Shown here in pieces: positions 16,517-37,634 of a stretch of DNA of 64,000 bases (position 1 is the first letter of the stretch; each line of letters opens with the position of its first letter). The stretch is from Corynebacterium camporealensis (GTDB lineage: Bacteria > Actinomycetota > Actinomycetes > Mycobacteriales > Mycobacteriaceae), in the NCBI RefSeq assembly GCF_000980815.1, contig NZ_CP011311.1:850571-914570 (forward strand), read 5' to 3'. The notes under the pieces are model-generated. The model did no database searches and was not told where the DNA came from. It saw only the letters and a list, made by a program, of their open reading frames with translations. A program made the translations under genes and the position numbers.

Positions 16517-18067
16517 ATGACTATCTCACGCCGAACCTTTTTCCGTGGTGCTGTGCTGCTGGCGTCGGTCGCTGGGCTGAGCGCGTGCAGTAACAACACC
16601 CCGCAGGGCTACGACGGGGAACCGCGTGCGCTGCCGATTCCGCCGCTGCTGGAAGGCGAGATGAAAGACGGGGTGCGCGAGTTCAAGCTGGACATGCGCA
16701 CCGGTCACAGTGAAATTTTGCCGGGCAACCCGGATACCCGCACCTGGGGGTTCAACGGTGACTTCTTAGGTCCTACCCTGCGCGTGAACGATGGTGAGCA
16801 GGTGCGCATGCACGTGCGCAATGACTTACCGGAGATGACCACGGTGCACTGGCATGGCATGAAGCTGCCTGCGCTTGCCGATGGCGGCCCGCACTCACCC
16901 ATCGACCCGGGCGAGACCTGGTCCCCAAGCTGGACCGTGGACCAGCCGCAGGCGACCTGCTGGTACCACCCGCACCCGCACGGTGTGACCGGCCTGCATT
17001 GCTACCGCGGCTTGGCCGGCGTGTTCATCGTCGCTGATGACAACGATGCGGAGCTGCCGCGTGAGTACGGCGTCGACGACATCCCGGTCGTGATTACTGA
17101 TGCCAAGTTCACCGACGATGGCCAGCTGGACAACCGCGTCGACCCGACCCTGGGCTTGCTGGGCAATACGCCGCTGGTCAACGGCATTACCAACGCCCGC
17201 TGGGAGGGTGATACCGGTCTGGTGCGCCTGCGCGTGGTCAACGGTGCGAACATGCGTTTTTGGAACCTGGCGCTGTCGAATGAGGCCCCGCTGCAGGTCG
17301 TGGCGACGGATTCCGGGCTTCTCGATGAACCCGTGACCGTCGATACCGTCCTGCTCAGTCCCGGCGAGCGCGTCGAGCTGCTGGTGGAGCTGCCTGCCGA
17401 TGACGACGTCATCCTGCAATCCCTGCCCGTCGAAGGCAACTTCGGCCTCCCGGAGGACGACGAGGTCGACTTCGGCTTCCAGGATTCTTACGACCTGCTG
17501 CAGCTGCGCGGTAACGGCGCGGGCGGCACAGTGCCTGCAACGCTTGTCGATGCCGATGTCCCCTCCGCCGAGGGACTCAAGGAACGCGAGTTCGTGCTCA
17601 ACACCTTCATGATTAATGGCGAGTACATGGACATGGCGCGGGTGGATGAGGTCATCGATAGCCGGGATCCGGAAATCTGGACCGTGATCAACGAAAACAG
17701 CGACTGGCCGCACAACTTCCACATCCATGACGCGCGCTTCCGCGTGCTGGAATTCGACGGTGGGGAAGTACCGACCGTCGGCTGGAAGGACACCGTGGCG
17801 CTGCCGCCAAAGTCGAAGGCGAAGCTGCTGGTGGAGTTCGGCTACCACCCGGACCCGACCGTGCCGTACATGTTCCACTGCCACATGCTCCTGCATGAAG
17901 ATGAGGGCATGATGGGCCAGTTCGTCGTCGTGGAACCAGGCGACAAGCCGGACGTGCGCGTCAACGCCCGTGCCTTGGTCCACGAAAAGCACGGCGGCCA
18001 TTCTGCGCACGCTGCCCAAAGCATCGATACTTCTCGTAGCCCGCAAAGGAATGCTGTGCTCGGCTAA
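16517..18067 (+). CDS. Multicopper oxidase, exported by Tat
   Basis: The 516-aa protein is a three-cupredoxin-domain multicopper oxidase of the CueO/CotA/bilirubin-oxidase type, which oxidises Cu(I), Mn(II) or phenols with O2. All four copper motifs are present: HWHG near residue 111, HPHPHG near 150, HNFHIHDARF near 398, and HCHMLLHEDEGMM near 453, the last giving the type-1 Cys/His/Met site. The N-terminus SRRTFFRG is a twin-arginine signal, followed by a hydrophobic stretch and GLSAC, a lipobox. It should therefore be folded in the cytoplasm and anchored outside as a lipoprotein. TAGACT lies 7 nt before the ATG, suggesting a leaderless mRNA. Confidence 0.92.
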   Translation: MTISRRTFFRGAVLLASVAGLSACSNNTPQGYDGEPRALPIPPLLEGEMKDGVREFKLDMRTGHSEILPGNPDTRTWGFNGDFLGPTLRVNDGEQVRMHVRNDLPEMTTVHWHGMKLPALADGGPHSPIDPGETWSPSWTVDQPQATCWYHPHPHGVTGLHCYRGLAGVFIVADDNDAELPREYGVDDIPVVITDAKFTDDGQLDNRVDPTLGLLGNTPLVNGITNARWEGDTGLVRLRVVNGANMRFWNLALSNEAPLQVVATDSGLLDEPVTVDTVLLSPGERVELLVELPADDDVILQSLPVEGNFGLPEDDEVDFGFQDSYDLLQLRGNGAGGTVPATLVDADVPSAEGLKEREFVLNTFMINGEYMDMARVDEVIDSRDPEIWTVINENSDWPHNFHIHDARFRVLEFDGGEVPTVGWKDTVALPPKSKAKLLVEFGYHPDPTVPYMFHCHMLLHEDEGMMGQFVVVEPGDKPDVRVNARALVHEKHGGHSAHAAQSIDTSRSPQRNAVLG

Positions 18068-18082
18068 GCTATCCTGCTTGCT

Positions 18083-18826
18083 ATGCACGAAGTCGATCCC
18101 CTCATCAACACCCTGTATCAGGTCTTTGACCTGATCGGAGTGGTGCTTAATGGCATCATCGGCGGCACGATTGCCCGCAAGCGCGAGTTCGACTTCGTGG
18201 GCTTTATCTTCCTCGCGCTGTTCTCGGCGTTGGGCGGCGGCATGATTCGCGACATGCTCATCGGCCAAGGCCCTGCCGCCGCAGTTTCCGACCCCTGGTA
18301 CTTAAGCCTCGCGATGGTCGGCGCCTTGATTGCATTCCTGACCGACTTCAAGGGCAAAGCCTGGGAAATCTTCCGCGCGCATGGCGATGCCGTCATTTTG
18401 GGCGTGTGGTCGATTACCGGCTGTGTGAAGGGCCTGACCTACGACATGCCGTTGGTCACCTGTGTCTTCCTGGGCCTGCTAACCGCCGTGGGCGGCGGCA
18501 TGCTCCGCGACGTCGCCTCCGGACAAACCCCGGGCATCTTCGGCGGCAGCCCGCTCTATGCCGTCCCTGCGATCATCGGCGGCATCGTCATGGTGACCTT
18601 CGCTCACTTCGAACACATGGCGCTGGGCATGATCATCTCGCCGTTCGTCGGCACCGGCCTCGCCGTCCTGGCCTATTGGCGCGGCTGGATCCTCCCACGC
18701 ACCGGCGTCGCCCCGGTCAACTACACTGCCGACCAAGTCAAAGCCATCGCGCGCCGGGCCGAGCGCAAAGGCTACCGTGCCGGCGCGAAGGCGCTGCGCA
18801 AGATGAAAAAGCGCCCGCGCGACTAG
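18083..18826 (+). CDS. TRIC/UPF0126 family membrane protein
   Basis: This 247-aa protein has two UPF0126 repeats, seven TM helices in total. The duplicated signature is visible as SALGGGMIRDMLIGQ (about residues 50-64) and TAVGGGMLRDVASGQTP (about 133-149). Prokaryotic TRIC proteins are trimeric cation channels; some relatives have been linked to glycine or other small-solute transport. The C-terminus is basic (RAERKGYRAGAKALRKMKK). It starts 15 bp after the oxidase stop, and TATCCT lies 7 nt before its ATG, so it could have its own leaderless transcript. Confidence 0.88.
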   Translation: MHEVDPLINTLYQVFDLIGVVLNGIIGGTIARKREFDFVGFIFLALFSALGGGMIRDMLIGQGPAAAVSDPWYLSLAMVGALIAFLTDFKGKAWEIFRAHGDAVILGVWSITGCVKGLTYDMPLVTCVFLGLLTAVGGGMLRDVASGQTPGIFGGSPLYAVPAIIGGIVMVTFAHFEHMALGMIISPFVGTGLAVLAYWRGWILPRTGVAPVNYTADQVKAIARRAERKGYRAGAKALRKMKKRPRD

Positions 18827-18909
18827 CGCCCGCCACTACTCCTGCCAAGCTGCATGAACACTGGTTTAATGGGGATGGCAAAGCGAGATAGGCAAGTGGG
18901 GGCAAAACC

Positions 18910-19749
18910 TTGAACGCTAACGAAGAACAAGAACCATTTCTTCAAAGAAGGCCGCCGTATTCCAAAACGCAAGTCAACAAACAAGGCAGTAACTGGCGTG
19001 ATGGGCGTGATTTTGATGAACAGCCGATAGATGAATTTTTGGCGTACTCCGCAATTCACATTGACGAACTGTTTGCTATCACGCGGAGGATGATCGCGAC
19101 CTTCGATTTCGGTATTGCCCCAATCGACGGGCTCACTGTGCGACCAGATAGTGGGGGCTATGCGTTGACAGCGAGAGTGAAGACAAAGAGCACGCTGCTA
19201 GAAAAGCTTCGCAGAATGCGCAGCATCCCCTTGATGAACATTCAGGATGTCGTTGGGATCAGGTTTGATTGTGACCTAACTTTGTCGCAGCAAAGCGAAG
19301 TAGCTAACTCCTTTGCAGAAACTTTTCGACAGCAAGGCGCGAAGCGCGTCGACATAAAGGACTTGAGAGACAAACCGCATTCCGGTTACCGGGCGGTCCA
19401 CCTTCACGTATACGCCAATGCTGGGCGCAGCGAGATTCAAATTCGGACCGCGTTACAGTCTCGCTGGGCTAATATCTATGAGAAAGCGGGCGATATCTAC
19501 GGTCGTGACATCCGCTACCTCCATGAAGGGGGAGAAATTCCAAAGAACGCTGAAAAGATGGTGCAGGATCTGCACCGCCTTTCACGCATCATCGAGCGAA
19601 TTGAGGCCTTATCGGATGAGCCTCGACTCAAACAACGACGAATGATTAAGAAGCTTCGTAAGGAAGCTAATGGCATACTAGACAGCAGTAACCACACGCT
19701 GGAGCTAGTAGCCGAAGCAAATGCAGCACAAGGAAGGAGGCTACGATGA
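18910..19749 (+). CDS. RelA/SpoT synthetase-domain protein (small alarmone synthetase or toxSAS type)
   Basis: The 279-aa protein has a single (p)ppGpp-synthetase fold and no HD hydrolase, TGS or ACT domain. Synthetase motifs appear in order: the G-loop TARVKTKSTLLEKL near residue 77, DVVGIRFDC near 115, the pocket KPHSGYRAVHLHV near 155, and SEIQIRTALQSRWA near 176. The catalytic residues look intact. A TTG start at 18910 follows GTGGGGG. Its stop overlaps the start of a 67-aa ORF by 4 bp, the layout of toxSAS toxin-antitoxin pairs. Base composition is about 43-50% G+C in sampled lines against 60-70% in neighbours, suggesting transfer. It could be a housekeeping RelS-type enzyme instead; toxicity is inferred. 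Confidence 0.82.
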   Translation: MNANEEQEPFLQRRPPYSKTQVNKQGSNWRDGRDFDEQPIDEFLAYSAIHIDELFAITRRMIATFDFGIAPIDGLTVRPDSGGYALTARVKTKSTLLEKLRRMRSIPLMNIQDVVGIRFDCDLTLSQQSEVANSFAETFRQQGAKRVDIKDLRDKPHSGYRAVHLHVYANAGRSEIQIRTALQSRWANIYEKAGDIYGRDIRYLHEGGEIPKNAEKMVQDLHRLSRIIERIEALSDEPRLKQRRMIKKLRKEANGILDSSNHTLELVAEANAAQGRRLR

Positions 19750-19949
19750 CGTCCTACTTAATCAGGTATCAGCGACGCACTGGCAAACTGCTCGATCTCA
19801 TTGAATTCGACTCACTCTACGACGCGACCATGAAGCGTCTAGAGCTTGATAAGACGAACGATGACCCTGATATCGAAATCGTAGCTATTGCGAGTGAAAG
19901 CGAATCCCAGCTGCGTGTTTCGCACTCCCGCTATTTCTCAGCAGCCTAA
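19746..19949 (+). CDS. Small ORF coupled to the RelA/SpoT gene, candidate antitoxin
   Basis: This 67-aa protein starts with an ATG that overlaps the preceding TGA (ATGA) behind a strong AAGGAGG, so it is clearly translated with its neighbour. It begins MTSYLIRYQRRTGKLLDLIE, then an acidic segment with DDPDIEIVAI, and ends RVSHSRYF. It looks like a small alpha/beta protein with no membrane segment and no DNA-binding motif I recognise. Known toxSAS antitoxins are small proteins that bind and block the synthetase, so that role is the natural hypothesis. It could also be an allosteric partner. Confidence 0.7.
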   Translation: MTSYLIRYQRRTGKLLDLIEFDSLYDATMKRLELDKTNDDPDIEIVAIASESESQLRVSHSRYFSAA

Positions 19950-19984
19950 ACACCGGCGGCTAGGGCTGCAGCGTGCAGAAATAT

Positions 19985-20028
19985 AACCCCAGTTCAACCT
20001 GTGAAAGACGCCGGTTGAGCTGGGGTTT
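19985..20028. terminator. Hairpin terminator between the RelA/SpoT pair and tRNA-Gln
   Basis: AACCCCAGTTCAACC pairs with GGTTGAGCTGGGGTT with one mismatch, and TTT follows on the plus strand. It can end both the small ORF and the tRNA transcript, which converge here. Confidence 0.8.
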
Positions 20029-20033
20029 AAGAG

Positions 20034-20105
20034 CTTCCCCACCAGGATTCGAACCTAGAATGACGGTACCAAAAACCGTAGTGTTGCCGATTACACCATG
20101 GGGAA
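20034..20105 (-). tRNA. tRNA-Gln (anticodon TTG)
   Basis: The 72-nt cloverleaf reads on the minus strand. Acceptor TTCCCCA pairs with TGGGGAA; the anticodon stem is ACGGT/ACCGT with loop TTTTGGT giving anticodon TTG; the T-stem is CTAGG/CCTGG with loop TTCGAAT. The discriminator is G and CCA is not encoded. Confidence 0.93.
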
Positions 20106-20207
20106 ACACAGCGAAGCTGTAGCCCATAGAGTACCGCATGATGGTGGTAGGGCAATAACCGGGTGGCTGTTGGGGTCTAAGCAGGGCCGGTAGCTAGGCT
20201 AATAGCT

Positions 20208-20816
20208 ATGGTGCGACAAAGGATGACCGGCCTGGAACGCCGTGAGCAACTAATCAACGTCGGGCGCGCAGCTTTTGCAGAACTCGGCTACGACGGTGCG
20301 AGCGTGGAGGAAATCTCTGCGCGCGCAGGCGTATCTAAGCCCGTGGTCTACGAACACTTCGGCGGCAAAGAAGGCCTGTTCGCGGTCGTTATTGACCGGG
20401 AGATGGTGGCGCTGGAAAGCGTGATTACCTCCGCGCTGGAGGAAGGCTCCTGGCGCGAGCGCATCGAGGCCGCCGCCCGGGCGCTGTTGACCTACGTCGA
20501 AGAAGAAACCGACGGCTTTATTATCTTGGTCCGCGATTCCAAGCCAGGTGCAGAGCGCAGCTATTCGACGCTGCTCAACGCGGCGGTCAGCCAGGTCTCC
20601 CACATCCTCGGCGAGGCCTTCCGTAGTCGCGGCTTCGATCCGGAGTTGGCTGTACTGTATTCGCAGGCGCTCGTCGGTATGGTCTCGACTACCGCGCAGT
20701 GGTGGTTGGATGAACGCAGCCCGGATAAAGACACCGTGGCAGCACACATTGTGAATTTGTGCTGGAATGGTCTTTCTGGCATGCAGGCACAACCGAAACT
20801 AGGGGGCGCACACTAA
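20208..20816 (+). CDS. TetR-family regulator upstream of mfd
   Basis: The 202-aa protein has a TetR N-terminal domain: RREQLINVGRAAFAELGYDG, then the helix-turn-helix VEEISARAGVSKPVVYEHFG. The C-terminal domain is all-helical with an exposed QWWLDE segment. It precedes mfd with a 1-bp TAA/ATG overlap, an arrangement I recall from M. tuberculosis Rv1019-mfd, so the regulator and repair helicase are probably co-transcribed. TAGGCT lies 7 nt before the ATG, suggesting a leaderless mRNA. The palindromic hexamer TAGCTA occurs twice around the start and could be an operator. Targets are unknown. Confidence 0.88.
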   Translation: MVRQRMTGLERREQLINVGRAAFAELGYDGASVEEISARAGVSKPVVYEHFGGKEGLFAVVIDREMVALESVITSALEEGSWRERIEAAARALLTYVEEETDGFIILVRDSKPGAERSYSTLLNAAVSQVSHILGEAFRSRGFDPELAVLYSQALVGMVSTTAQWWLDERSPDKDTVAAHIVNLCWNGLSGMQAQPKLGGAH

Positions 20817-23800
20817 TGGCAACCGCGATGCTAGCCGGTCTGCTGAAGACGGCGGCACAGGACCCGAAGCTCAAAGGCCTAGTTACCCAGGTAGGCACGC
20901 CGCACCTGCACTTGATGGGTATTGACCAGGTACGTCCGTGGGCACTGGGCACCCTGGCACAGCACGCCCCGGTGCTGGTCGTGACGGCGACTGGTCGTGA
21001 GGCAGAAGACCTCACCGCAGAACTCACGGCGATGCTAGGGGAGAAGGTCGCACTTTTCCCGGCATGGGAGACGCTGCCGCATGAGCGTTTGAGTCCGGGT
21101 GCGGATATCGTCGGCAAGCGTGCGCAGGTGCTGCACAACCTGGCCAACCTGCGCGTGGTGGTCGCCCCGGCGCGTGCGTTTAGCCAGCCGGTGCTCGAGC
21201 ACGTGGAGGGCCGCGAGCCGGTGCGCCTGGAAGAAGAGGCCGAGTACGACCTCACGCAGGTTGTCGAGGAGCTGCAGTTCCGCGCGTACAAGCACGTCGA
21301 TATGGTTGCTCGCCGCGGTGAGTATGCGGTGCGCGGTGGCATCGTGGATATTTTCCCGACCACGCTGGACTATCCGGTTCGCGTGGAGTTTTGGGGCGAT
21401 GAGGTTACTGATATTCGTCAGTTCTCGGTCGCGGACCAGCGCGCGATTGATGAGATTGATGTCCAGTCCGTCGAGATTTACCCGGCGCGCGAGCTGCCGA
21501 TTACGGACCAGGTCGCTGAGCGTGCCGCCGAGCTGTCCCGCGAGCACCCGGGCAATGCAGCCCTGGTGGAGCTGTTGAGCAAGGTCTCAGACAAAATTGC
21601 TGCCGATGGCATGGAGTCCTTACTTGCAGTGCTTTCCGATGCCCCTTTCGTCACCCTTCCAGAACTCATGCCAGAAGGCACCCATGTCGTCTTGGCGGCG
21701 CCGGAGAAGATTCGCACGCGCATTGCGGATCTGGAAAGCACCGATGCGGAGTTTTTAGAGGCCGGCTGGGAGGCCGCCGCGATGGGCGCGGATGGCCCGC
21801 TGGCGGTCTTTGATACCGAGTCGGCGAGCTTTCGTTCCTATGAGTCGCTCGAGGCCAGTGTCGAAAAGGCCGGTCTGCCGCTGTGGACGTTTGCCCCGCC
21901 GGGCATGCTGAGTGTCGATGATGCGGAAACGTTGCCGTTGGAGCTCGAGCCAGGGCCGACCCCGCGCGGTGACCTCAAGGAAATCGATGCGATGATGGCG
22001 CAGCTGCTTGCGCACACCAACAATGGTGGTCGCGCGGCGTTTGTGGCACCGTCGCCAGGTGCGATTAAGCGCATGGTCGACCGCTTTACCGAAAAGGGTA
22101 TTCGCGCGAAGGTCGCCACCCCGGGATGGGAGCCTTCCGCGGGCGAAGTAACCCTGTACCAGGCGCTCTCTCATGCCGGTCTGGTCTTCGACTCTGTCGT
22201 CGTGGTGACCGAGACGGATCTCACTGGTAACCGCGTCGGCGATATTGCCGGTGCTAAACGACGCCCTGCCAAACGCCGCAACCGCGTCGACCCGCTGGCG
22301 CTGAAGCAGGGGGATTTTGTGGTGCATGAGACCCATGGCATCGGCAAGTTCATCAAGATGGCTGAGCGCACCATTCAATCCGGTGATGAGACCAGCCGTC
22401 GTGAGTACATCGTGCTCGAATATGCGGCGTCCAAGCGCGGGCAGCCCGCGGACCAGCTGTGGGTACCGATGGATTCACTCGACCTGCTGTCGAAGTACAC
22501 CGGCGGCGAGGCCCCACGCGTGTCCAAGATGGGTGGTTCGGACTGGAAGAACACCAAGAAGAAGGCACGTGCTGCGGTCCGCGAAATCGCTGGCGAGCTC
22601 GTGGAGCTCTACGCCAAGCGTCAGGCCGCGCCGGGTCACCAGTTTGCCCCGGATTCGCCCTGGCAGGCGGAGATGGAAGATAACTTCCCCTTCGTCGAGA
22701 CCGAAGACCAGATGCTAGCTATCGATGCGGTGAAAGAGGACATGGAATCTACCGTGCCGATGGACCGCGTCGTGGTTGGCGATGTCGGCTACGGCAAGAC
22801 CGAGGTCGCCGTGCGCGCAGCTTTCAAGGCGGTCCAGGATGGTTGCCAGGTCGCCGTGCTCGTGCCGACGACGCTGCTGGCACAACAGCACTTCGATACC
22901 TTCAACGAGCGCATGGCTGGTTTCCCGGTCGAGATTCGCGTGCTCTCGCGCTTTACCTCGACCAAGGACGCCAAGGAAATTGTTAAGGGGCTGGCGGATG
23001 GCACGATTGATATTGTCATCGGCACGCATCGCCTCCTGCAGACCGGCGTGGGCTGGAAGAACCTAGGCCTCATCGTGGTCGATGAGGAGCAGCGCTTCGG
23101 CGTCGAGCACAAGGAGCACATCAAGGCGCTGAAGGCCTCTGTCGATGTGCTGACCATGTCCGCCACGCCGATTCCGCGCACCCTGGAGATGTCCATGGCA
23201 GGAATCCGTGAGATGTCGACGATTCTTACCCCGCCGGAGGACCGCCACCCGGTGCTGACCTACGTTGGCGCTTACGAGGACAAGCAGGTTGCGGCAGCCA
23301 TTCGGCGCGAGCTGCTTCGCGATGGCCAAACCTTCTTCATCCACAACAAAGTCTCCGACATCGAAAAGAAGGCTCGCGAACTGCGCACCCTGGTGCCCGA
23401 GGCGCGTATCGTCGTCGCGCACGGCCAGATGAACGAGGACGTGCTGGAAAAGACCGTTCAGGGATTCTGGGATCGCGAATACGACGTGCTGGTGTGTACC
23501 ACCATCGTGGAAACCGGTCTGGATATCGCGAATGCTAACACGCTGATCGTGGAAAATGCGCACCACATGGGTCTATCCCAGCTGCATCAGCTGCGCGGGC
23601 GCGTGGGTCGTTCCCGCGAGCGCGGTTACGCCTACTTCCTCTACCCGAAGGGATCCACGCTGACGGAGACCTCCTATGACCGCCTGGCCACCATTGCCCA
23701 GAACAACGATCTGGGCGCCGGCATGGCCGTAGCGATGAAGGACCTCGAGATGCGCGGTGCCGGCAACGTACTGGGCGCACAGCAGTCCGGCCACATCGCC

Positions 23801-34670: not shown

Positions 34671-35148
34671 ATGCGCCAGCACTCTGTGACGGTAAACACT
34701 TTCTAAACTTTTCGTGTCCACAAAACAACGCTCGTATGGCCGACGTATAAACAGTGTAACCAGACGTTTTCGCTGCTCACTTTGGTGAATTCTTACATTC
34801 TTGTAATTCAGGGGTGGCAATGGGGGTAATAATTCGGCGATTGTGGACATGTACACCAATTAAAGGTCTACTCGCACACACATTCCCCGTCCAGCCAATG
34901 AGCAGGAAATTTTTACCTAATTCTCGTAATCCAATTCACCCTTTGGTGTTTGTTGAGCGACGGTTGCCTTCCGAGGGTCAATTCGTCTCGTCGCGACAAA
35001 GTGTGCTGGGTCATGCATGATTGTGCCCAGGACGTTCGGAACACGACGTCGGGACGGGCAACCGCCTCGGGGTCCCCGCCAGAGCGCGAGAGCGTAACTG
35101 GAGTCCGGAGGTCCTTGCTCATTGGATTGTTTCTATCGAGGGGATGCT
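34671..35148. other. 478-bp intergenic region upstream of the lipoprotein/PPE-like pair
   Basis: No gene is supported. The left 250 bp are AT-richer and contain GGTAATAATTC and two near-DnaA-box sequences in opposite orientation (GTGTCCACA near 34713, TTGTGGACA near 34842). The right part is G+C-rich and holds the palindrome TCATGCATGA near 35012. A GGGG run precedes the next ATG. Promoter and control sites for the next operon must lie here. Confidence 0.5.
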
Positions 35149-35874
35149 ATGCAACGGCTGGGATTCGCAGCGCTGCTGACGGCTACGTTCGCAGTAGTGG
35201 GCTGTAGTGCGGAAGCCGGTGTGCGGAACGCGTCGGAGGAGGCGTCGCTGGAACAACGCGACGGCGAGGGGGCCTCTGATGGTACTAGTGCCACCGGTAG
35301 CCAGGGTGAGGCAGCGAATCCCGACGGGGGAGTCGTAGACGGTCATCCCGGGGGACTCGAAGACGACAATTCCAATGAGCAAAACGACGCCGGTGGCGGG
35401 GCTTCGGGGGGCCTCGCCACCGCAAGCGACGAGGGCTACGGCGTCCTTCCACCGCTCGGCCCCTTCGACCCAACTGCTCCAGACTTTGAACTCTTCGACC
35501 CTTGCACAGAAATCCCGCAAGAGGTGTTCGATGAACTTAATCTCGAGAGAGTTGAAGAAGGCCTGGACCTTGAAAGTGTAAAGAACTGTACTTTCAGTAT
35601 GACTGATGGGCCTTTTGTGATGGGATTGTCCGGTCTGGCAGTAGACCTCGAAACTGTAGCTGCGCAGGCTATCGGAGACCGTATCATTTTGGACGACGCG
35701 GTCACTCCGCACTCCATGTTTCATCAAATTGACCCTGAAAAGGGATTTCATTGCGCGATGCATACAGAGACTTCGCGAGGAACTTTAATGCTTTCGATTG
35801 GTAGCTTTAGCGAGAAAATTGAAGGTGCGGCTGTCTGTTTGATGGCCGATAAATATATGCAAGATCTTGTTTAG
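35149..35874 (+). CDS. DUF3558-like lipoprotein
   Basis: This protein of about 241 aa begins with a lipoprotein signal ending VVGC near residue 18. A low-complexity linker rich in Gly, Asp, Glu and Ser follows (about residues 20-100). A globular C-terminal domain opens with FDPCTEIP and contains two further cysteines in KNCTFSM and FHCAMH; DPC followed by a C-x-F/W pair is typical of DUF3558, an actinobacterial lipoprotein family of unknown function. The linker is G+C-rich while the domain is about 45% G+C. It lies 20 bp before the PPE-like gene and is probably co-transcribed with it. An upstream in-frame start at 35122 would add nine residues but spoil the signal. Confidence 0.75.
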   Translation: MQRLGFAALLTATFAVVGCSAEAGVRNASEEASLEQRDGEGASDGTSATGSQGEAANPDGGVVDGHPGGLEDDNSNEQNDAGGGASGGLATASDEGYGVLPPLGPFDPTAPDFELFDPCTEIPQEVFDELNLERVEEGLDLESVKNCTFSMTDGPFVMGLSGLAVDLETVAAQAIGDRIILDDAVTPHSMFHQIDPEKGFHCAMHTETSRGTLMLSIGSFSEKIEGAAVCLMADKYMQDLV

Positions 35875-35894
35875 AATTGTCTTACGGGGGAAGA

Positions 35895-37634
35895 ATGAAG
35901 ATTAGTACTGAATCCATGGCTACGTCCTCTCTGAGGTTGTTGAGCACAGCCTTTATTAGCGGGGTAGTGGCTGAAGGGGTGACTTCGCCAATTGACCAAA
36001 GCTTTTCAAGTGTTTCTGGAATCGATGCGGTCGGAGGAATTTTTGAGCGCACACTCACCTCTGATGTTGGTTCCGCAAAAAATTCGCTTCGAGAATTTGG
36101 TCAGCAAGTTGAATGGCTCGGTGACACGCTTCGCTCTGAATTCAAGGCATTTTTTAACCAGGAGTCTTCAAATAGTCATGCACTAGATATTGCGGATGCC
36201 GGTGGAGCAGTAGGGCATGAAAATATGCCTATTGTTAATCAACCACAGCCAGGCTACAGCCACTTTTCCTTTGTGCCCCCGAGTGTAAGCGTTGGGCCGA
36301 GTTTGCCTGCTCTCGTAAACAATTTGTCATTTACAAAGCATGCAAGTCTAAAGAGTACTCGTGAAGAGTGGAATAAGCTTGGGGAGCACGTTGGGAACAT
36401 CGTGCAAAGTCTTGACGAGATTGCGGACGCTCTATCCCATCAAAATGAAGCGGAAGCTATTTCGAGGGCTATCAGTAAGATTCAGGAAGTTGCTGGCTCG
36501 GGCCGACAGTTTATGGCTAACGCAGACAAGATGGCTTTAAAGGCAACTGTATTTCAAGAGAGTCTGATTGATGCCACACTCGATGGAATGATGTATCAGT
36601 TCAAGGTTAATGCTATTCCTGATCCTGCTGCGAAGAAGCTGGCTGAGCAGGCGGCGTTGCAGACGTTGCAGGCGAAGTTGCAGGCGTTGGCGTTGGCGGC
36701 GGTGCCGGACCAGCATCCGTTGATGGAGCCGAAGGCTGCTACTGGTGGTGGCAGTATCGATGCTGGTCTGGGTGATGTCGCTGGTGATGGTACGCGGTGT
36801 TCGACTGAGTCGGTGGTGTGGCCGAAGGCAATTACTGAGGCTATGGCTAATGGCACTGTGGGGCCAGGTTCGTTTGAGGTGGCTGATGGTCAGATTCAGG
36901 CGGTAGCTGGTGTGGACCCGGAGGCGGTGCAGCAGTTGCGAGAAACTGCGCATCGGGAAGGTACTCGGGCGCTGCGTGAGATGGGCTTTGGAGATGTGCT
37001 GCCCATGGATGCAGGAAGTTTGGCAACGCAGCAGGCGGCGACACCGTCGATGGCGAGTGCGGGTACTGGTTTCGGTACGGCTACTCCGATGGGCGCTGGT
37101 GCTTCTGGTGTTGGTGCGGGTCCGGCGGGTGCCGCTGCGGTGAGTGGTGGTGCGGTGCCAGGTGGTCAGACGGGCATGGGTGGCTTTGCTCCGGTTGGTG
37201 CGGCTGTTGGTGGTTCGGGAAGTAACCGCTTGGCAGCGGGAATCCGTGGAGGTTCTTTTGGTGCGGCACCTGGTGGGGTAGCGGCACGGTTGAATCCGGG
37301 TGGAGCTGGTGCTGGTTATGGCGGTGCAGGTGCTGGCGCAGGTAATGGTGCGGCATCGCCGAGGGCTATTGGAGGCCCGGGTGCGGGGGCATCGTCAGGT
37401 GCGGCTGGTGCGGCTGGTCAGTCTGGTGGACAGGCAGCCCGTGGTGGGGGTGCGATGCGCGGTATGGTGCCGATGATGGCGGGCCCGCGCGGTAATGACA
37501 AGAAGGAGACCTTGGTCAAGATGGTGACCACGAAGGTCGAGCGCGACCCGAATCGCCGGGACTTGTTAGGCGAGGCACCGGCGGTGGTGCCAGGTGTTAT
37601 TGGTGATTGGGTGCGTGACCAAAAACCTGACTAG
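35895..37634 (+). CDS. PPE/EspB-like helical protein with glycine/alanine-rich region
   Basis: This protein of about 579 aa has no Sec or Tat signal. Residues 1-130 have no recognised domain. Residues 155-270 are a predicted helical bundle containing REEWNKLGEHVGNIVQSLDE and two further amphipathic helices, reminiscent of WXG100/PPE/EspB proteins. From about 370 to 530 it is Gly/Ala/Ser-rich. The last 45 residues are again ordered: VTTKVERDPNRRDLLGEAP then VVPGVIGDWVR, a tail I associate with PPE-like type VII secretion substrates of nocardiae. The ATG at 35895 has GGGGGAAG before it. The first half is AT-rich (45% G+C in a sampled line), the repeat region about 72%. No secretion genes or EspG are nearby, so export by ESX is inference. 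Confidence 0.6.
   Translation: MKISTESMATSSLRLLSTAFISGVVAEGVTSPIDQSFSSVSGIDAVGGIFERTLTSDVGSAKNSLREFGQQVEWLGDTLRSEFKAFFNQESSNSHALDIADAGGAVGHENMPIVNQPQPGYSHFSFVPPSVSVGPSLPALVNNLSFTKHASLKSTREEWNKLGEHVGNIVQSLDEIADALSHQNEAEAISRAISKIQEVAGSGRQFMANADKMALKATVFQESLIDATLDGMMYQFKVNAIPDPAAKKLAEQAALQTLQAKLQALALAAVPDQHPLMEPKAATGGGSIDAGLGDVAGDGTRCSTESVVWPKAITEAMANGTVGPGSFEVADGQIQAVAGVDPEAVQQLRETAHREGTRALREMGFGDVLPMDAGSLATQQAATPSMASAGTGFGTATPMGAGASGVGAGPAGAAAVSGGAVPGGQTGMGGFAPVGAAVGGSGSNRLAAGIRGGSFGAAPGGVAARLNPGGAGAGYGGAGAGAGNGAASPRAIGGPGAGASSGAAGAAGQSGGQAARGGGAMRGMVPMMAGPRGNDKKETLVKMVTTKVERDPNRRDLLGEAPAVVPGVIGDWVRDQKPD

Follow-up and report, generated by a model that had tools for sequence, protein, structure and literature searches.

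Among the described toxic small alarmone synthetase (toxSAS) modules, the PhRel:ATphRel pair of phage Phrann was reported to be related to the two halves of the fused protein CapRel SJ46, and unfused pairs were reported to be usual in Actinobacteria (PMC9712102). The two Phrann genes, gp29 and gp30, were described as a prophage defense against several phages, Tweety included (PMC9262239). In CapRel SJ46 and in ATfaRel2, the antitoxin of FaRel2, a YXXY motif is described as blocking the ATP site, and ATfaRel2 has been published as a circular permutation of the CapRel domain. Here, we analyzed a pair of overlapping genes in a 64,000-nucleotide stretch of the Corynebacterium camporealensis chromosome (contig NZ_CP011311.1, positions 850,571 to 914,570, referred to as the window). 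With a probability of roughly 0.8, we consider the pair to be a two-gene toxSAS toxin-antitoxin module of the PhRel:ATphRel type that forms accessory cargo on the 3' side of a tRNA-Gln gene and works by pyrophosphorylation of tRNA CCA ends under the control of the antitoxin. The features of the pair are as follows:

18910..19749, + strand: toxin gene, encoding a putative PhRel-type toxic small alarmone synthetase of 279 aa; TTG start
18961..19005, + strand: toxin residues 18-32, SKTQVNKQGSNWRDG, an N-terminal extension resembling YSKSQIEKAARKIRHG of CapRel SJ46
19174..19263, + strand: ATP-site residues R89, K91, K99, R102, D113 and R118, assigned by analogy with FaRel2
19387..19389, + strand: G-loop tyrosine Y160 (HSGYR), from sequence and alignment
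19432..19449, + strand: EIQIRT motif, toxin residues 175-180, from sequence and alignment
19734..19740, + strand: ribosome-binding site AAGGAGG of the small gene, within the toxin gene, 5 nt before the ATG
19746..19749, + strand: ATGA shared by the toxin stop and the antitoxin start, from sequence
19746..19949, + strand: antitoxin gene, encoding an ATphRel-like pseudo-zinc-finger protein of 67 aa; ATG start
19923..19937, + strand: antitoxin residues 60-64, HSRYF, in the position that the YXXY neutralization motif has in CapRel SJ46 and ATfaRel2

An in-frame TAG at 18889-18891, 21 nt upstream, makes the TTG at 18910 the first possible start of the toxin gene, and the alignment to one phage homologue, which begins at residue 1, favors this start; the stop codon occupies 19747-19749. 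RelA_SpoT (E 6e-11) was the sole Pfam domain of the toxin, which therefore lacks a hydrolase domain, and none was found in either protein of the pair by the Pfam scan, which covered these two proteins. Residues R89, K91, K99, R102, D113, R118, Y160, E175 and Q177 were invariant in all 23 aligned rows (window included). The protein has the composition of the PhRel subfamily, a single synthetase domain without a hydrolase and with the catalytic residues kept, and the lone synthetase domain noticed in the initial annotation was thus confirmed. Structures were predicted for single chains. The best structural match of the toxin model was CapRel, aligned from residue 14, whereas RelQ aligned from residue 37 only and was devoid of the N-terminal extension in this match; since the N-terminus is unresolved in RelP structures, the contrast is valid for RelQ. 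The corresponding region of FaRel2 helps to bind the tRNA acceptor stem (PMC11782079, PMC11559606), and by analogy the toxin residues 18-32 may be its counterpart.

The 4-bp overlap (ATGA) with the 67-aa frame and the AAGGAGG, both noticed in the initial annotation, were confirmed, and the overlap suggests translational coupling of the two genes. The Pfam scan revealed no domain in the small protein. Nevertheless, it is not a chance open reading frame (ORF), because PHROG 22117 matched it end to end (E 4e-27) and homologues were found in 29 of 30 toxin loci (see below). The PADLOC model PDC-S33 (349 positions) was matched by the toxin at 5-235 (E 4e-17) and by the small protein at 266-329 (E 0.012), so that the pair as a whole is laid out like a fused toxSAS. 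Better matches to the same end of the model came from three relatives of the small protein (E 1.5e-8, 8.6e-5 and 2.4e-4). A three-stranded sheet, a helix and a short terminal turn bearing the motif were predicted, as in a pseudo-zinc-finger domain (pZFD). In the structure search with the small protein ATfaRel2 ranked 1-3 and CapRel 7 and 9, with modest scores tied with unrelated rows, and the best hit of its profile in the PDB sequence search was an unrelated-looking protein (E 0.11). A single-domain partner of 67 aa has no room for two domains, which was considered with the antitoxins of FaRel-type toxSAS in mind, those with a Tis1-like domain or with hydrolase activity. The partner had been taken at first for an undescribed family, a view that found no support: it corresponds to the ATphRel/pseudo-zinc-finger antitoxin family presented in PMC9712102. 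Elsewhere in the genome of the window, a second stretch matches the small family weakly and over part of its length (G000:C1:1910150-1910275, E 0.013, positions 24-65 of 66).

The linkage of the two genes was followed in 242 genomes of the genus, the window's own included. The toxin was present in 39 of them (E up to 1e-15), and the small gene was found just downstream in 29 of the 30 Corynebacterium toxin loci fetched (own locus included). The exception (L015) is cut off by the end of its contig, and the remainder of a toxin stands with the small gene on a different contig of that genome (L129). Among 50 places matched by the toxin profile, 44 were paired with the small gene; the six unpaired ones comprised a half at a contig edge (G153), one part of a split frame, the other part of which is paired (G043), and, with E values from 3e-10 to 4e-6, four weak matches that are probably other synthetases. 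The small-protein profile matched 85 places in 63 genomes: 76 were full length and nine partial and unpaired. A toxin stood directly upstream on the same strand of 44 of the 76 full-length genes, and 32 were without it. Hence, a clear toxin is practically always accompanied by the antitoxin, whereas the antitoxin often occurs without the toxin. In two loci (L119 and L120, in G136 and G202), 28 N-terminal residues of a second antitoxin survive as a stub upstream of an intact pair.

Across a draw of the phylum, the small family was rare (10 of 396 genomes, window's included), with the toxin upstream in seven of ten cases (all except L095, L098 and L100). A scan of named genomes with the single toxin as the query gave 47 stretches and no confirmed relative. 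With an alignment as the query it gave 29 toxin loci, every one followed by the small gene, two of these by weak matches. They came from Corynebacterium (16, overlapping with the loci of the genus survey, as equal lengths of several contigs indicate), Bifidobacterium (three), Chloroflexi/Dehalococcoidia (four), and Arthrobacter, Mycobacterium, Tomitella, Gordonia, Nocardia and Promicromonospora. The conservation of the small ORF with the synthetase, on which the initial annotation had let its proposal depend, was thus found in both samples.

The toxin tree (36 rows, 275 columns) was rooted on the genome's own Rel (L001). The window toxin fell into a starred set of eight Corynebacterium and phage proteins (support 99/96), nested in a group with Phrann PhRel and WST1 (90/83). 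The genome's own second synthetase (L002), used as a proxy for the housekeeping RelP/RelQ (RelS) type, was placed outside the PhRel group, and the toxin did not branch with it, contrary to what a housekeeping origin would predict. CapRel SJ46 branched separately, together with proteins that other families within the phylum contributed. The rank among the toxSAS subfamilies is less sure than the split from the second synthetase, because the outgroup branches are long, the tree holds no FaRel, FaRel2 or PhRel2 sequences, and, according to a warning of the program, CapRel and five more proteins may be joined falsely to the own Rel.

In 50,697 phage records, the toxin matched ten (E up to 0.001), including all five matched by the small protein (E up to 0.1), namely two records of Phrann and one each of WST1, Corynebacterium phage IME1320_01 and a phage labelled Pasteurella. 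Both genes stood in tandem in all four phages read. Matches of the toxin alone, with E 4e-5 to 3e-4, comprised Squirty twice, two M. abscessus prophages and one faecal phage. The window pair shares with Phrann gp29:gp30 the gene order, a lone synthetase (279 versus 292 aa) and a small partner (67 versus 71 aa) with HSRYF in both; a separate gp30-type antitoxin gene beside the toxin is the PhRel arrangement. Identity to Phrann PhRel was 37% over 76% and to gp30 38-39%. The window pair is chromosomal, however, and gp29 and gp30 do not overlap. Identities to IME1320_01 were 45% (toxin) and 56% (small protein), and to phage PMP-GADVASU-IND 51.5% and 67%, the tandem pairs lying approximately 0.9 kb and 2.1 kb, respectively, ahead of a terminase gene; unlike the window pair, both sit in phage genomes. 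The IME1320_01 toxin is annotated as a GTP pyrophosphokinase, whereas the annotation of PMP-GADVASU-IND assigns no separate gene to the toxin frame. PMP-GADVASU-IND (L004, KY203335.1) is the phage labelled Pasteurella. It follows the gene order of IME1320_01, with 51-63% identity in the main tblastx pieces, and the host given for it may be incorrect; approximately 370 nt beyond its antitoxin gene there is a gene for tRNA-Lys. Homology of both genes to gp29/gp30, the predicted fold and the tree argue for the toxSAS class and a plausible phage-defense module, as originally proposed.

CapRel SJ46 has the same order of toxin and antitoxin parts and, in common with the window toxin, a YSKxQ-like N-terminus. 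It differs by its separate branch in the tree, by fusion into one reading frame (two genes here), and by YPNYF in place of HSRYF. FaRel2:ATfaRel2 of Coprobacillus provides the best structural match of the small protein, with 18% identity between the antitoxins and YXXY there versus HXXY here; the aligned end points suggest that the two motifs occupy the same place. The window antitoxin (HSRY) thus has no YXXY in the strict sense. HxxYF was found in 83 of 84 distinct full-length split antitoxins, Phrann gp30 included (HSRYF 67, HARYF eight, HANYF four, four singles; the exception is HSRYL in L168). This sample is not unbiased, because the profile that gathered it belongs to the same family, and solitary copies are included. 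Eight fused proteins were compared, SJ46 and one each from E. coli, Shewanella, Acetobacter, Sinorhizobium, Nostoc, Raoultella and Acinetobacter: in seven, [YF]P[NA][YF]F stands close to the end, and the last 75 residues of the Acetobacter protein lack a motif of this kind. In sequence, therefore, the split branch has a histidine in place of the first motif tyrosine and keeps the second, which is the critical one in ATfaRel2, where Y54A abolishes and Y51A weakens neutralization (PMC11782079). The exchange may merely mark a clade, because split and fused forms differ in host phyla too. 'HXXY' together with 'antitoxin' gave no match in the literature searched and 'HXXY' is absent from the main text of PMC11782079; the histidine itself is already in print, since PMC9712102 has an alignment figure with Phrann ATphRel.

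The surroundings of the pair contain the following features:

18083..18826, + strand: left flank, a membrane-protein gene, presumably of the TRIC type, that directly adjoins tRNA-Gln in three relatives
19985..20027, no strand: inverted repeat separating the pair from tRNA-Gln, its 15-nt arms being 93% complementary
20033..20105, - strand: tRNA-Gln (TTG), with the pair on its 3' side
20208..20816, + strand: right flank, a regulator gene that we take to be TetR-type, conserved beside tRNA-Gln

The pair occupies the 1.2 kb between the membrane-protein gene and tRNA-Gln. Its GC content is 0.50 (GC3 0.53 and 0.58) versus 0.593 for the window, and the four neighboring genes have GC3 of 0.70-0.84. 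In three relatives (L040, L041 and L043) the site is empty, the flanks lying 12 to 38 nt apart between the aligned ends; one of these genomes (G016) has a pair elsewhere. Thirty TetR loci were fetched, 23 of them from the genus (own included). tRNA-Gln was found in 22 of the 23 and the membrane gene in five: the own locus, the three empty sites and L046 with approximately 530 nt of other sequence. In G070, a distant species whose toxin is 38% identical, a divergent PhRel pair lies beside the same TetR gene and tRNA-Gln (L090, 7425-9721), also on the 3' side of the tRNA and in the orientation opposite to the window pair, which suggests two insertions at one spot. The tRNA-Gln/TetR site is likely an insertion hotspot. 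Among 19 Corynebacterium pair regions scanned for tRNAs, L090 alone had one within 300 nt. Other relatives carry other genes at the tRNA-Gln site (L042, 153-923, and L045, phage-like in look), one of which, as we assume, resembles DUF3800.

No att-type direct repeats bracketing the insert were found in 18780-20140; hence, no complete integrative element is claimed. Five IME1320_01 proteins gave no match in the window either, and the pair is therefore not claimed as a prophage remnant. The promoter scan of 18000-20900 gave no sigma-70-type promoter (mean of shuffles 1.3). The inverted repeat is a possible terminator, which was not among the predictions of the terminator scan. Elsewhere in the window, at 35122-37634, a lipoprotein-like gene followed by a gene for a 585-aa Ala/Gly-rich protein was read in or beside a lower-GC stretch.

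The genes, their homology, the predicted folds, the linkage and the insertion come from the present analysis, and homologues suggest the rest. The 67-aa antitoxin would dock its sheet edge onto the synthetase and insert the C-terminal HSRY turn between R89 and R118, blocking ATP binding. During infection, a phage product would pull the antitoxin off, as homologues suggest, and the freed synthetase would use ATP to pyrophosphorylate the 3'-CCA end of uncharged tRNAs, the target expected from related toxins. Such modification would halt translation and abort the infection. Initiation at TTG for the toxin and a strong ribosome-binding site for the antitoxin would favor an excess of the latter.

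Three other explanations were weighed. The enzyme might be a toxSAS of another chemistry, making (pp)pApp and draining ATP as FaRel or Tas1 do, with the small protein as its antitoxin; we regard this as improbable, although it is the strongest of the three. Slightly less probable is a housekeeping-type (p)ppGpp synthetase with a small regulatory partner. The toxin shares the catalytic domain with RelP and RelQ, but Rel and a second synthetase are encoded elsewhere in the genome, and the latter lies outside the PhRel group. The patchy distribution (39/242), the low GC and the empty site indicate an accessory gene. The linkage to the small gene and the late start of the RelQ alignment speak against a housekeeping role as well.

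The pair could also be a decayed relic that arrived with a phage or an island and lost its function. In the family such decay occurs, as a damaged toxin stands beside an intact small gene in at least six of the 44 pairs (G015, G170, G032, G043, G035 and G188), and toxin fragments adjoin four of the 32 solitary small genes (L139, L141, L146 and L148). Both window frames, however, are complete, with the catalytic residues and HSRYF intact, which makes this the least probable explanation and a very unlikely one. A PhRel:ATphRel-type module therefore remains the preferred interpretation.

The solitary full-length genes (32 loci, L137-L168) belong to 29 of the 242 genus genomes. Approximately eight adjoin defense genes (AEP-TOTE helicase, Wadjet JetA/JetB, AbiLi-like ATPase). 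Five copies lie downstream of an AEP-TOTE primase-helicase (L157, L159, L164, L166, and L165 with a 93-aa ORF between). This helicase was found in 27/242 genomes, with the small gene within approximately 300 nt in six (one partial), and five of these six helicases are 91-100% identical; as a second partner of the small protein it was dropped on account of the few linked cases and their near-identity. An ApeA_NTD1-like gene upstream of L152 stayed below the Pfam cut-off (20.4 versus 25.5 bits). It is conceivable, if rather doubtful, that split antitoxins differ in kind from the fused ones: the histidine could make release respond to, for example, protonation or a metal, and at the same time the toxin-less copies (approximately four in ten in Corynebacterium, some in defense islands) could give stand-alone protection against incoming toxSAS or be part of other defense systems.

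The window pair adds a chromosomal example to a family of defense toxin-antitoxin modules known mainly from Phrann and CapRel, and shows the family to be common but patchy in Corynebacterium. HxxYF versus [YF]P[NA][YF]F offers a sequence signature separating split from fused forms. With the solitary antitoxins, the idea that bacteria keep antitoxins as immunity against incoming toxSAS modules becomes testable.
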